From: a virus
Strand: one strand, 5' to 3'
Length of the DNA: 32,117 nucleotides
Virus record (IMG/VR): IMGVR_UViG_3300042560_001120
Location: 1 to 32,117 of that record
Of this stretch, positions 22,483 to 26,776 are shown piece by piece. The position numbers and the translations under genes were made by a program. The notes beneath the pieces are model-generated. The model saw only the letters and a program-made list of their open reading frames with translations. It ran no database searches and was not told the DNA's origin. Position 1 is the stretch's first letter, and each line of letters opens with the position of its first letter.

Positions 22483-22682
22483 GCCGCCCTCCTCGCCTCA
22501 TCCCGCGCCCGCAAAGCCCTCAGGTCGCGTTTTTCTAGCCACACAATAGCCACACCGCCATTACCCACCTCGGCCACGCTCACGGCATTGTCAGAGATGA
22601 CCCCGTGGTCTTGCAGTTCGTTCATCACCAGCCGAGCGTCGAGGCCACGGGCGGCGATATAGGCGCGGAGGGAGTCGCTCAT
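22479..22682 (-). CDS. Small hypothetical protein
   Basis: 67 residues. A helical N terminus (LRAYIAARGLDARLVMNELQDHG), a short beta stretch (AVSVAEVGNGGVAIVWLEK) and an Arg-rich C terminus (RDLRALRARDEARRAA). No family is recognised. It is a real coding gene by context: ATGA and GTGA overlaps link it to the dpdA-like gene and to the next small gene. Confidence 0.55.
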   Translation of the reverse strand: MSDSLRAYIAARGLDARLVMNELQDHGVISDNAVSVAEVGNGGVAIVWLEKRDLRALRARDEARRAA

Positions 22683-23320
22683 AGCAAAGCCTCCATTACC
22701 ATCTGCGGCCTTTTGTCGTTTCGTGTGGATAGGCGCAAATACCGCTCAAGTTCTTCCAAGCGATCTTCGCCGCCACGCATCCATCCTGTGCCGTCACAGG
22801 ATTCAGCCCCAGCGTCGTGCGCCATCCACAAAAGGCGCTCGCTATTGACCCGCCCGACATGGACGCGAGGGTGCGCTGCCGTCCACATCTTGAGGTTGCG
22901 CCACTTCCACTCGGTCGAGCCGCCCACAAAAATCACATCGGCATCGGTCGGCACATCATCGACGGTCATGCCGTCCTGCACGACAAAAGCCAAAGGCGCG
23001 TTGATGACGCCTCGGATACGCTGCGACCACTCCGGCCAGCGCGCCCTGGTCGCCTTGGCGTCGGCCACCACATCGGGAACAGCAACCCACATCGGGCGAA
23101 ATTCGCGGCGGGCGCGGTCGAGGAGATCCAGAAAGCCTTGCTCATCCCACTCGCGTTTATTGAGCCACGCGCCGAAAGCGCCATTGTCCAGCGCGTAGGG
23201 CATCCACGACGGCGGCTTCCGCCACCCATCGGGCGAGATTAGCCAGCCCAAACGATTCGGATACTTGCCGCACAAGTAGCCGATTTGGATTCCGCTGTTA
23301 TTTGTGGGCATGACCAGCAT
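22679..23320 (-). CDS. dpdA: DpdA-like 7-deazaguanine transglycosylase (TGT-like)
   Basis: 213 residues from the ATG at 23320; an ATG at 23311 is also possible, and neither has a clear ribosome site. It has TGT-barrel-like motifs: LDNGAFGAW (44-52), WVAVPDVVADA (78-88), VIFVGGSTEWKW (129-140), RVHVGRVNSERLLW (152-165) and ESCDGTGW (173-180). DpdA enzymes exchange guanine in DNA for a 7-deazaguanine base. Being next to queC and queD, with an overlap into queC, makes a DNA-modification role much more likely than a tRNA one. It is shorter than full TGT enzymes, as in phage forms. Confidence 0.7.
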   Translation of the reverse strand: MLVMPTNNSGIQIGYLCGKYPNRLGWLISPDGWRKPPSWMPYALDNGAFGAWLNKREWDEQGFLDLLDRARREFRPMWVAVPDVVADAKATRARWPEWSQRIRGVINAPLAFVVQDGMTVDDVPTDADVIFVGGSTEWKWRNLKMWTAAHPRVHVGRVNSERLLWMAHDAGAESCDGTGWMRGGEDRLEELERYLRLSTRNDKRPQMVMEALL

Positions 23321-23912
23321 CGGCAATGGCTTTCAGTCTGACTTGGCACGCACCGCATTGGCCGCACGGCTCGTCGCCGCCCGCGTAGCATGACCACGTT
23401 TCTTCCAGCGGCACGTTTAGCCGCCATGCAATATCGACCACCTTGGCCTTGGTGCGGACGATGTAGGGCAGATGAACCTCCATCCGGCGCGTGTGGCAGC
23501 ACCGCAGGGCAAAATTGAGGTGCTTCATAAAGTCGGCGCGGCAATCGGGATAGACCTCCGCATCGTCGCCGTTCACCGCGCAGGAAACCGCCGTGCATCC
23601 GTGCGAAAGCGCATAGCTTGCCGCCATTGCGATCAGCACCATGTTGCGGTTTGGCACTACGGTTGGCTTACCGACCAGCGGTTCGTTTCCTGTGGTCAGC
23701 GCCGACCGCTCAAATAGCTGCGGCGGCAGGGTGATTTTGTCGTAAGCCACGCCCAGCTTGGCGCAAGTCGCCTCGGCAAAGGTCAGTTCCTTGATGTGCC
23801 GCTGTCCGTAGTCGTAGAGCAGGCAATGGGCTTTGTGGCCTTGATGCAGAAGGTCGTAAAGCAGAGTGGTGCTATCCAGCCCGCCCGACATGAGATGAGT
23901 GAATTTAGCCAT
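23298..23912 (-). CDS. queC: 7-cyano-7-deazaguanine (preQ0) synthase QueC
   Basis: 204 residues. PP-loop ATPase motif SGGLDST at residues 9-15. RNMVLIAMAASYAL and NGDDAEVYPDCR are family motifs, and the C-terminal zinc cysteines are Cys175, 183, 186 and 189 (CYAGGDEPCGQCGAC). QueC converts 7-carboxy-7-deazaguanine to preQ0 with ammonia and ATP. All key residues appear intact. It lies one base after queD and overlaps the dpdA-like gene, so the three are co-translated. In phages such sets make modified DNA bases that block host restriction. Confidence 0.9.
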   Translation of the reverse strand: MAKFTHLMSGGLDSTTLLYDLLHQGHKAHCLLYDYGQRHIKELTFAEATCAKLGVAYDKITLPPQLFERSALTTGNEPLVGKPTVVPNRNMVLIAMAASYALSHGCTAVSCAVNGDDAEVYPDCRADFMKHLNFALRCCHTRRMEVHLPYIVRTKAKVVDIAWRLNVPLEETWSCYAGGDEPCGQCGACQVRLKAIADAGHAHK

Positions 23913-23913
23913 A

Positions 23914-24267
23914 TCAGTTCTTGGTCAGAATCACGTTTGAGGTTGGCGTTTCGCGGACTTCGACGCGGGAAAGCAGCGGCAATCGCGGCTGCAATTCGCG
24001 CCAAAGCCACGCGGCAAGGTTTTCGGCGGTGGTCGCGCATGGAAGCATATCGTTGAGGTTTCGGTGATCGAGGGACGCCACGATCGGCTTTACCACGGCG
24101 CTGATGTCCGCGTAGTCCTGCACCCATTCGTTAGCGATCGGGCCGCACACGCCGACCAGCACTTCGTAGCTATGGCCGTGCAGGCGATGGCATTGATGGT
24201 CTGCCGGGAGATGTGGCAGCGAGTGCGCGGCCTCAAAACGGTAGGCTTTGGTGATTTCGTATTTCAC
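23914..24267 (-). CDS. queD: 6-carboxytetrahydropterin synthase QueD
   Basis: 117 residues, GTG start overlapping the replication gene as GTGA. Typical features: FEAAHSLPHL (zinc His15), CHRLHGHSYEV with catalytic-type Cys26 and zinc His30/His32, DYADISAVVKPI, SLDHRNLND (Asp67-His68) and VEVRETPTSN. QueD makes 6-carboxytetrahydropterin from dihydroneopterin triphosphate on the way to preQ0. QueE and FolE are not in the window, so they must come from the host or from genes outside it. Confidence 0.9.
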   Translation of the reverse strand: MKYEITKAYRFEAAHSLPHLPADHQCHRLHGHSYEVLVGVCGPIANEWVQDYADISAVVKPIVASLDHRNLNDMLPCATTAENLAAWLWRELQPRLPLLSRVEVRETPTSNVILTKN

Positions 24268-25127
24268 GCCGCCACCTCCACGCCAGCCAACCTCTGCCGC
24301 ATTTCCGATATGGACGCCTTCAGCGCCTTCACCTTCGCCATCGGCTCGGCCTTCAAGCGCCTGTCGAACGAGTCAGGGACGGCTTCCTTGTTCGCCGGGT
24401 TCGCGCAAATGCGATCCACCTCCTTCTGCGCGGCCTCGATGCGTTGCTGAAGCTGCCACACGCCTTCGGGTTTCGGGCTCCCGTTATGGCCGTTGACCGC
24501 ACCGTTGCCGAACTGCTTCGGGCTGCGGTTGCTCTGCCACTTGCGCCAAAAGCCCGACAAGTCGTGCGGCATGGACGAGACGCGCCTGCCCTTGCCGTCC
24601 AGCCATCCCGCGCCCTCGCGGTCATCGAAGTAAGCCCGGCAAACGTCTTCGGGGATGCTGGCGCGTCTTCCTGCCTCGATGACTTCCTCGACCGCAAACC
24701 CCGCCTCGCCACCTACTGTGCTATATATACTCTTCTCTTCTCTTCTCTGGTAACGCTCTTGTAACGCTGGGAGCGTTACAGAATCGGCCCTTGTTTTTTC
24801 GACCCGATTCTTTGTAAGTGCCCGCTTCTTAGCTGTTTGGCCGTTGTGACGGTCAAAGTGCGGGAAGGACAAGTCGCCATCGCGGCCCTCCAACCAACCC
24901 ACCTTTCGCATCGCCTCGGCGAAACCCGGCGTGGTCGTGATGCGATCGAGCACATTTGCTGTAACGCTCACAGCGTTACAATCTGCGATATGCTGATCGG
25001 CCCACGCCCAGACCTTCCAGAGCCTTCCGACTACGGCAAGCTCGTCCATTTCCAACGCCGCCGCCATCTGGAACACGGCGGGGTCGGTGTCCAGATTGCA
25101 GCGCATTTTGATCCAATCGCCAGCCAT
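24264..25127 (-). CDS. Replisome-organizer-like replication protein carrying an origin candidate
   Basis: 287 residues. The N terminus (WIKMRCNLDTDPAVFQMAA, VVGRLWKVWAWADQH, DRITTTPGFAEAMRKVGWL, FDRHNGQTAKKRALTKNR) resembles the DNA-binding winged-helix part of phage replication initiators. Helices follow, with a C-terminal coiled region (QQRIEAAQKEVDRICANP). It is followed by queD (GTGA overlap) and preceded by a conserved gene (TAATG overlap). Two palindromes with identical arms lie inside the coding DNA, as iterons do in lambda O. Initiator function is inferred; no helicase gene is visible. Confidence 0.65.
   Translation of the reverse strand: MAGDWIKMRCNLDTDPAVFQMAAALEMDELAVVGRLWKVWAWADQHIADCNAVSVTANVLDRITTTPGFAEAMRKVGWLEGRDGDLSFPHFDRHNGQTAKKRALTKNRVEKTRADSVTLPALQERYQRREEKSIYSTVGGEAGFAVEEVIEAGRRASIPEDVCRAYFDDREGAGWLDGKGRRVSSMPHDLSGFWRKWQSNRSPKQFGNGAVNGHNGSPKPEGVWQLQQRIEAAQKEVDRICANPANKEAVPDSFDRRLKAEPMAKVKALKASISEMRQRLAGVEVAA
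24750..24780. repeat. Origin-candidate palindrome A plus half-site
   Basis: The half site GTAACGCT (24750-24757) is followed by a perfect palindrome with arms TGTAACGCT (24760-24768) and AGCGTTACA (24772-24780) around GGG. Immediately to the left is an AT/pyrimidine tract (TATATATAC then TCTTC repeats, 24722-24747) that could unwind. Similar to initiator-binding iterons beside a melting region. Confidence 0.6.
24960..24980. repeat. Origin-candidate palindrome B
   Basis: The same arms, TGTAACGCT (24960-24968) and AGCGTTACA (24972-24980), surround CAC, exactly 200 bases from palindrome A. The two copies are read in different codon phases of the host gene (SVTLPALQ against CNAVSVT), so their identity is conserved as DNA, not as protein. 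Confidence 0.6.
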
Positions 25128-25618
25128 TAGATTGCCTCTCGTATGGCCGTGAATACCCCTGTCATGTCTGCCACCCGCTCAAGCTGCGAATATTTAACGG
25201 TAAAAGCGCGAAGCTCCGACTTGGCGGCATTGATGATCTGCGCCAAAGCCTTCTCGTCTTGGAAAGCGTCAGCGAGCGGCAAGTATGTTCCACGTTTAGC
25301 CGCATCAATCGTCCCGTCGTTTTCGACCTGTTTCACCGGCCAAAAAGCGCGGATCGTCAGCGTCTTGTTGTCGGGTGTCTCAATCGTCACCTTTACCCGC
25401 CGGATCAACTCGTAGGCTTGTAACTCTCGGTATTTCCGCGCCGCCTCCGTATCGTCCCAGCAAAAGTAAGCGTGCAGGGTTGAGCGTGGACTCTTGGCAA
25501 CGGCCAAGACCGATTCCGGCGTCAGGCCGCGCTTGCTGGCGGCGATGGCCGTGAGTTCCTTGCGGATTTCGTCGTTGCGAGTCAGTGACCCGCGTTCTGG
25601 TTCAATTAGGCTAATCAT
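25127..25618 (-). CDS. Conserved phage protein of unknown function
   Basis: 163 residues from the ATG at 25618. Residues about 20-80 (KELTAIAASKRGLTPESVLAV, STLHAYFCWDDTEAARKYR, AYELIRRVKVTIETPDNK) form a pattern I have seen in many phage early regions: an aspartate-rich W-D-D-x-E-A-A motif followed by a strand. The C terminus is helical. The frame stays open to 26131, but that part is repeat DNA and is excluded. It overlaps the replication gene by one base (TAATG), so a replication-linked role is likely but unproven. Confidence 0.6.
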   Translation of the reverse strand: MISLIEPERGSLTRNDEIRKELTAIAASKRGLTPESVLAVAKSPRSTLHAYFCWDDTEAARKYRELQAYELIRRVKVTIETPDNKTLTIRAFWPVKQVENDGTIDAAKRGTYLPLADAFQDEKALAQIINAAKSELRAFTVKYSQLERVADMTGVFTAIREAI

Positions 25619-25630: not shown

Positions 25631-25700
25631 GGTTTGTTGTTCTCTGCAAAAAATGAGCGCAATTTTTACCCCGGTCGCGCCCCCCGGTTTGTGTCGTGTC

Positions 25701-26071
25701 CCTGTCATGCCGCGCCCTGCCTGGCCTGGCCGCGCCTGGCCGCGCCTGCGTTGCCTCGCCACGCCGGATCGTTCCAAGCCGTGCCATGCCGTGCCATGCC
25801 TGCGTTGCCAATACGCGCCTGGCCGCGCGCTATCGCGCTGTGCCCAGCCTAGCCTGCGTTGCTTCGCCTGACCCTGCCTAGCCCGGCCTACCAAGCCTGC
25901 GTTGCCGCGAATTGCCGCGACTCGTCTTGCTATACCTTGCCAGCGTTGCTTCGCCTGGCCCAGGCGCGCCGGGCCTATCTGCGCCTGCGAAGCCTTAGCT
26001 CGCCCAGCAGTGCAGCGCCTAGCCCAGCCAGCGTTGCGCTGACGTGACGGGCCAAGTCTAGGCGTGCCTAG
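25701..26071. repeat. Nested pentamer / 44-54 bp repeat array, non-coding
   Basis: Eight units start at 25701, 25745, 25799, 25853, 25896, 25940, 25984 and 26028, with lengths 44, 54, 54, 43, 44, 44, 44 and 44. Most open with CC(T/A)GCGTTGC: four copies of the T form, two of the A form, CCTGCGAAGC at 25984 and a diverged CCTGTCATGC at 25701. Within units the DNA runs in pentamers, 50 of 68 ending in GC. Each unit is 8 or 10 pentamers plus four bases (three in the fourth unit), so the phase slips at every unit boundary. It fills most of the 525-base gap between genes. Function is unknown. Confidence 0.8.
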
Positions 26072-26143: not shown

Positions 26144-26776
26144 CTATTCCGTTGCCAGCGTGAAATTGCCCCAGCCCATGCCCGCCGACATTTTGCTGTC
26201 GTTGCGCCCCTCGCCAATGCCGACCTGTTGGCCGACACGTTGCAGCAGGTTAGCGACATCGGTTGCGCTGAACTGATCGGTGTCGTAGCTCACGCGCACG
26301 TTAGCCGACCACGGCCAGAACTTTGCCCGCACACGCAGGTCGCAGACGCCCGTGGCGTTGCGAGCGTGCATAATGTGCTTTTCGGCCTCGCCATCGATCT
26401 TGATAAGCGGCACCGCGTCCACGATGTCGAAGCCATCGGCCTCCGTGAACAGCGACAGCTTGGCGAGCGTCATCTTGAAGCCGACCAGCCGACAGGCCGA
26501 GATAAGCGCGTTGCGGAAGGCGGATGCCGGGATGCCGCACCATCCTTCCGTGCTGATGTGTTTTGCCGCCTCAAAGTCGGCGTCGAAATCGCGGGCCTCG
26601 CGGGCCTTCTTTTTGTTTGCCTGCGATCCAGCCGCCATTTTCGCCATCATCGTCTCGATGGCTTTCTGCGAAAATCGCAGTTGGATGTAGGGTGATGTGC
26701 CGACGATCTTAAAAGCCGCTGTCGAGATGGACGGCGCTTTTATCGTCACGTTTTCTTCTTTAGTGTTCTTGCTCAT
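26144..26776 (-). CDS. Conserved phage protein with RAMP-like motifs
   Basis: 210 residues from the ATG at 26776. An N-terminal strand (AAFKIVGTSPYIQLRF) is followed by a Lys/Asp-rich helix. GIPASAFRNALISACRL (81-97) resembles the IPGSSLKGALR-type motif of Cas7/RAMP proteins. The C terminus LLQRVGQQVGIGEGRND (177-193) ... GMGWGNF (199-205) resembles the glycine-rich RAMP loop. The centre (AKFWPWSANVRVSYD) is strand-rich. It lies with recombination and replication genes. The RAMP-like fold is inference from motif order; no function is claimed. A longer frame to 26968 would run into the wHTH gene and is rejected. Confidence 0.6.
   Translation of the reverse strand: MSKNTKEENVTIKAPSISTAAFKIVGTSPYIQLRFSQKAIETMMAKMAAGSQANKKKAREARDFDADFEAAKHISTEGWCGIPASAFRNALISACRLVGFKMTLAKLSLFTEADGFDIVDAVPLIKIDGEAEKHIMHARNATGVCDLRVRAKFWPWSANVRVSYDTDQFSATDVANLLQRVGQQVGIGEGRNDSKMSAGMGWGNFTLATE

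Follow-up and report, generated by a model that had tools for sequence, protein, structure and literature searches.

A pentamer array in a phage locus

The window analysed here is an entire virus record of 32,117 bases. It holds an array of short repeats with a predicted vipr gene (P0003) upstream of it and a candidate vap gene (P0002) nearby, and the minus strand is the sense of all genes flanking the array (Table 1). RecT-like, exonuclease VIII-like and replication genes make up the other neighbours, and a tRNA search returned none. Further along the minus strand (22679–23912), a QueC-like gene adjoins a gene weakly matching queuine tRNA-ribosyltransferase, a possible sign of deazaguanine DNA modification.

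Table 1 Features of the locus in the window
Feature	Positions	Strand	Description and basis
vipr (P0003, phrog_4652)	26144–26776	−	Predicted RAMP/Cas7-fold protein, 210 aa; profile, fold, homology; upstream of array
Putative vrRNA guide array	25701–26068	−	GGCNN pentamers in eight units; sequence reading
Unit 1	26030–26068	−	39 nt, most degenerate; NN: AC TA TT CC AC AG AA
Unit 2	25986–26029	−	44 nt; NN: TG TA GC AC TG GA AA TT
Unit 3	25942–25985	−	44 nt; NN: GC TA CC GC TG CA GA AA
Unit 4	25898–25941	−	44 nt; NN: AA AT AA GA GC AA GC AA
Unit 5	25855–25897	−	43 nt; one pentamer short by a base at 25889–25892
Unit 6	25801–25854	−	54 nt; NN: TA TG AC GC AG GC CA GC TT AA
Unit 7	25747–25800	−	54 nt; NN: AT AC AT AC TT AC CC GT GA AA
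Unit 8	25702–25746	−	About 45 nt, continues into tail; NN: GC CA GC CA CA AG GC AT AG
3′ tail	25655–25701	−	Predicted H-type pseudoknot; pairing/swap test, stem coordinates from sequence
Tail stem 1	25684–25687 with 25671–25674	−	CCGG with CCGG
Tail stem 2	25677–25682 with 25655–25660	−	Loop GGGCGC with GCGCTC, one G-U pair
Candidate vap (P0002, phrog_15946)	25127–25618	−	vipr accessory protein, 163 aa; position, conservation
Replication-initiation-like gene	24264–25127		Array lies upstream

Each unit of the array comprises whole pentamers plus four bases (5n+4). Units meet at a joint, GGCA(A) followed by a four-base step CGCA or CGCT (in general form GGCA(N)(C/G)GCA), and the step resets the pentamer phase. 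The unit lengths are those given in an earlier note on this DNA, the sole 43 arising from a pentamer, GGTA, that lacks one base. The same note had placed a head CC(T/A)GCGTTGC at eight unit starts. We found it exactly at 25745, 25799, 25853, 25896, 25940 and 26028; at 25984 it is degenerate (CCTGCGAAGCC), and position 25701 has no head, being the array edge where the 3′ tail begins. Autocorrelation of 25701–26071 at the claimed periods was far above dinucleotide shuffles (z 7.7 at lag 5, 7.8 at lag 44, 5.6 at lag 54), as it was at lag 49 (z 7.2); none above the shuffles was detected at lag 43. Spacing is kept while unit bodies differ, which excludes simple tandem duplication, as had been argued. 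Tandem Repeats Finder (TRF) detected only 40 bp of the array, and an Rfam search gave no match for the region. We conclude that the array is genuine and that GGCNN on the minus strand, rather than a plus-strand motif, is the useful reading.

The neighbouring gene is a predicted Vipr homologue

VIPR (Viral Interference Programmable Repeat), reported for the first time in an April 2026 preprint (PMC13142463), binds DNA under RNA guidance in a manner resembling CRISPR. It comprises a RAMP protein, Vipr, together with an accessory gene, vap, and vrRNAs in which 9–16 GGY/NN repeats precede a structured tail. The NN pairs recognise double-stranded DNA while leaving out one base between pairs, in most cases the wobble position of a codon, and the system silences genes of competing phages and prophages (PMC13142463).

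We found 29 relatives of P0003 in IMG/VR. Their alignment shows an N-terminal G.aP motif, the motif GIPA.AFR.A.ISACR and a glycine-rich C terminus, VGIGEGRPDSK.SAGMGWGTF, and these features suggested a RAMP protein. A profile of the 29 proteins matched the Vipr chain of phage SUSP1 (36pp_D) with an E value of 3.4e-12 over 188 aligned positions, and gave no other confident match in the PDB. With SUSP1 Vipr as the tblastn query, a member of the same family, gp39 of Gordonia phage UmaThurman, was recovered (E 5e-4). The AlphaFold model of P0003 has a pLDDT of 88, and the Foldseek matches listed for it were all backbone chains of type III (Csm3) or type VII CRISPR effectors (best E 1e-5, probability about 1). 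We conclude that P0003 is, as judged from profile and modelled fold, a RAMP/Cas7-fold homologue of Vipr, in agreement with the RRM-like core and G-rich loop that characterise Vipr.

P0002 is conserved next to P0003 in nearly all loci, and in Mycobacterium phage Gorge the homologues of both lie inside one annotated gene, gp54 (L093, 2215–3432); we therefore consider P0002 a candidate vap. Comparison with SUSP1 vap1 detected no convincing homology, and a structural search with the P0002 model (pLDDT 87.5) gave no match. Neither P0002 nor P0003 matched a defence model in PADLOC-DB. Family profiles were built with the arrays masked, as a guard against open reading frames running through them, and because the vap-family profile also picked up vipr proteins, vap counts use position and length too.

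The array ends in one predicted pseudoknot

The tail follows the last unit only, and the remaining units have none of their own. Within the window's clade, stem 1 is either CCGC/GCGG or CCGG/CCGG and is complementary in all 15 distinct tails. For stem 2, the tail loops pair with their own downstream arms, and none of 5000 swaps paired as well; the window keeps its one change as a G-U pair. These patterns predict that the array terminates in a single tail folding as a covarying pseudoknot. Other clades have different 3′ flanks, and the pseudoknot was seen only in the clade of the window. A TATAAAT next to the array was considered as a promoter −10 box and rejected; this conserved sequence links one stem of the pseudoknot to the other.

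Guide-like units turn over rapidly between related phages

Nearly all P0003 relatives carry the array in the corresponding position and orientation, in many cases far cleaner than in the window. We found arrays in dozens of environmental phages, always in gene sense and beside the same two genes; in nearly all loci the array precedes P0003, follows P0002 or separates the two. The joint and pentamer pattern occurred in 52 stretches of viral contigs as against three in 257 Gb of bacterial and archaeal genomes; two of these three are in metagenome-assembled contigs and the other (Belnapia) has no array.

We extracted 571 units from 96 arrays. Their joints carry GGCA (253) or CGCA (164), and the preceding pentamer is mostly GGCA plus C, A or T. 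We consider the joint likely to be the boundary signal between guides. Unit lengths cluster at 39, 44, 49, 54 and 59, so that the rule of whole pentamers plus four, proposed in the earlier note for this array, is general. Because units occur at all 5n+4 lengths (these five and more), we rejected helical phasing, an idea raised by the same note's remark that the unit lengths are near four and five helical turns. Distinct unit bodies seldom recur (19 of 427), and only 20 of 220 guides are shared between phages whose Vipr proteins are at least 97% identical. Guide turnover is thus fast between phages with near-identical vipr genes, which raises the question of how phages acquire their VIPR guides.

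Dinucleotides resemble codon positions 1 and 2

For 415 guides, we set the NN strings against a mixture of six codon-phase models derived from the coding sequence of phages. The entire weight fell on the two models in which the wobble base is skipped (71% sense, 29% antisense), a result that speaks to composition and not to target identity because the reference codons come from VIPR-bearing phages. The gain in log-likelihood over the best other skip was 155 (99% bootstrap interval 120–184). Strand was coherent within guides (z 6.6), and reversed dinucleotides placed zero weight on the wobble-skip models. The guide dinucleotides therefore look like codon positions 1 and 2 without the third base, as expected from the published one-nucleotide-skip code, and they offer independent sequence evidence for the noncontiguous code of VIPR in phages far from those studied.

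Exact scans of IMG/VR with five guide patterns gave zero or chance-level matches, and the searched sequence yielded no natural target. Units 6 and 7 of the window had no exact match, nor did a guide of nine dinucleotides. A mycobacteriophage guide matched two contigs (37% and 49% GC), out of the same-strand wobble-skip codon phase, which we judged to be chance, and a guide common to four phages had 18 matches in unrelated genes, equal to the chance expectation. Contigs of VIPR-bearing phages showed no excess of matches over shuffled guides, and two order-level genome scans around array-carrying metagenome-assembled genomes yielded zero targets. One perfect skip-3 match was rejected as a target because it was left over from a related array. 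Real targets could sit in prophages or satellites outside the searched sequence, or could require mismatches beyond exact scans.

Relation to known RNA-guided systems

Taken together, we read the region as a phage VIPR locus consisting of vipr, a candidate vap and a multi-guide vrRNA array, with a probability of about 0.93. The earlier note knew of no named element of this kind; one now exists in the VIPR vrRNA, and an unexplained repeat is thereby tied to a newly described RNA-guided system. The closest comparison is type II VIPR of the Escherichia phage SUSP1 (PMC13142463; PDB 36pp), which is likewise phage-encoded, has a RAMP protein homologous to P0003 over its length and an adjoining accessory gene, and uses RNA of alternating GGY/NN pentamers with a pseudoknot tail. 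In SUSP1, however, vrRNAs are separate and have one tail each, whereas the many guides of the window follow one another through 4-nt slips and have one tail in common. Units here hold about 7–11 repeats, with a tail after the last only, whereas published vrRNAs have 9–16 repeats followed by an invariant 3′ tail. VIPR itself is already known; what is new here is a member with a layout of many guides and one tail. The preprint also mentions staggered arrays with overlapping vrRNAs (PMC13142463, fig. S18); judged from this description, they probably have the same architecture, in which guides succeed one another and lack individual tails, and they may already cover the layout.

The predicted fold of P0003, its glycine-rich loop and the RNA-guided logic recall Csm3 of type III CRISPR and the type VII backbone (Cas7 family). 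Unlike CRISPR, the locus has neither near-identical repeats with long spacers nor a cas operon, and its guide information is split into dinucleotides. When the window was examined for a CRISPR–Cas array, near-identical repeats and unique spacers were absent, only the pentamer period and a 9–12-nt joint recurred, and no cas genes flanked the array.

By analogy with SUSP1 VIPR, we propose the following mechanism. Minus-strand transcription would run through vipr, the array and the candidate vap, whose product may serve as the accessory protein, and would yield an RNA of about eight guides, each of about 6–10 GGCNN repeats, ending in the pseudoknot tail; single guides might then be processed from it. 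Vipr subunits would coat the RNA, one per pentamer, with the GGC triplets held by protein and the NN pairs facing outward. These pairs would bind double-stranded DNA with one base skipped (NNxNNx...), usually the codon wobble base, and the bound ribonucleoprotein could block transcription or otherwise repress genes of rival phages or prophages. We suggest, tentatively and with other outcomes favoured, that one RNA with many phase-slipped tandem guides, a single pseudoknot cap and whole guides swapped between near-identical phages constitutes an exchangeable repertoire.

Alternative explanations

Much of the evidence also bears on readings in which the array acts as DNA. The protein-binding scaffold suggested earlier would make it a cis element to which a phage protein binds near the replication genes (iterons, a partition site or an operator array), and both its tandem short motifs, typical of iterons, and its place upstream of the replication-initiation-like gene are compatible with this. 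Such an element leaves unexplained the strand fixed relative to the genes, the arrays that also occur before vipr and after vap, the codon-like dinucleotides, the covarying RNA pseudoknot at the array end and the RAMP protein next door, and we regard it as very improbable. The earlier suggestion of a recombination-prone buffer, here a neutral minisatellite, draws on the very fast unit turnover between near-identical phages. However, units rarely repeat one another, distant phages retain GGC and the 4-nt joint, and the dinucleotides are non-random; the fixed strand, the RAMP gene and the RNA tail are again unaccounted for, and we give this reading almost no credence.

Other readings accept RNA or the VIPR origin itself. 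TRAP sites resemble a pattern of triplets with two-nucleotide spacers, and the array, which has this form, lies within the 5′ region of the candidate vap gene; it could then be a structured leader or attenuator acting in cis on the downstream gene, for example through TRAP-like binding to two-base-spaced triplets. Against this, the whole-region array RNA folds no better than shuffles (z −0.77), arrays occur also downstream of vap, before a terminator-like hairpin, and the hypervariable NN pairs hold codon-like information. We consider an ordinary leader highly unlikely; from the earlier proposal of a structured RNA leader we retain minus-strand RNA as the possible functional form, as a guide-RNA array. 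Decay of the window copy deserves more weight. GGY is found in 66% of its pentamers, compared with 74–77% in the two nearest relatives, 95% in mycobacteriophages and 98% in a clean related clade, and one pentamer misses a base. Because many relatives stand at 95–98%, activity of the window copy is putative, and the copy may be partly decayed. Yet vipr retains an intact frame whose 210-residue product matches two relatives at 100% identity, the pseudoknot of the tail persists, its one change held as a G-U pair, and joints are kept in most units; we therefore think it unlikely, though worth bearing in mind, that the locus is VIPR-derived and inactive. A genuine VIPR locus, present here as a somewhat degenerate copy, remains our preferred reading.

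VIPR-like loci in isolated phages

In INPHARED, the P0003 family occurs in 33 records (27 Mycobacterium phages, five Gordonia phages and one cyanophage), and all ten isolate or assembled phages inspected from these three groups carried the array. These matches put VIPR in Cheoctovirus phages of Mycobacterium and in teaching-collection phages of Gordonia, and laboratory tests in Mycobacterium smegmatis are therefore possible.

Several arrays are annotated, wholly or partly, as hypothetical proteins: UmaThurman gp40 (L089, 2674–2997) and Pipp gp43 (L091, 2745–3014) in Gordonia phages, and ByChance gp39 (L001, 2531–2689), Gorge gp53 (L093, 2014–2178) and Quico QUICO_56 (L094, 1397–1912) in Mycobacterium phages. 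Two loci with Vipr relatives of 58% and 35% identity (L030 and L031) had no GGC array in the flank examined. In another locus (L066, 219–993), a recurrent block, GGCAATGTTTCGGCGGGGGCGGGGGTGTTCACGGCA, stands between guides and perhaps provides one tail per guide. In cyanophage Cy-LDV1 (L092, 4620–5620), arrays occur between the two genes and also after them, close to its repressor and excisionase genes.
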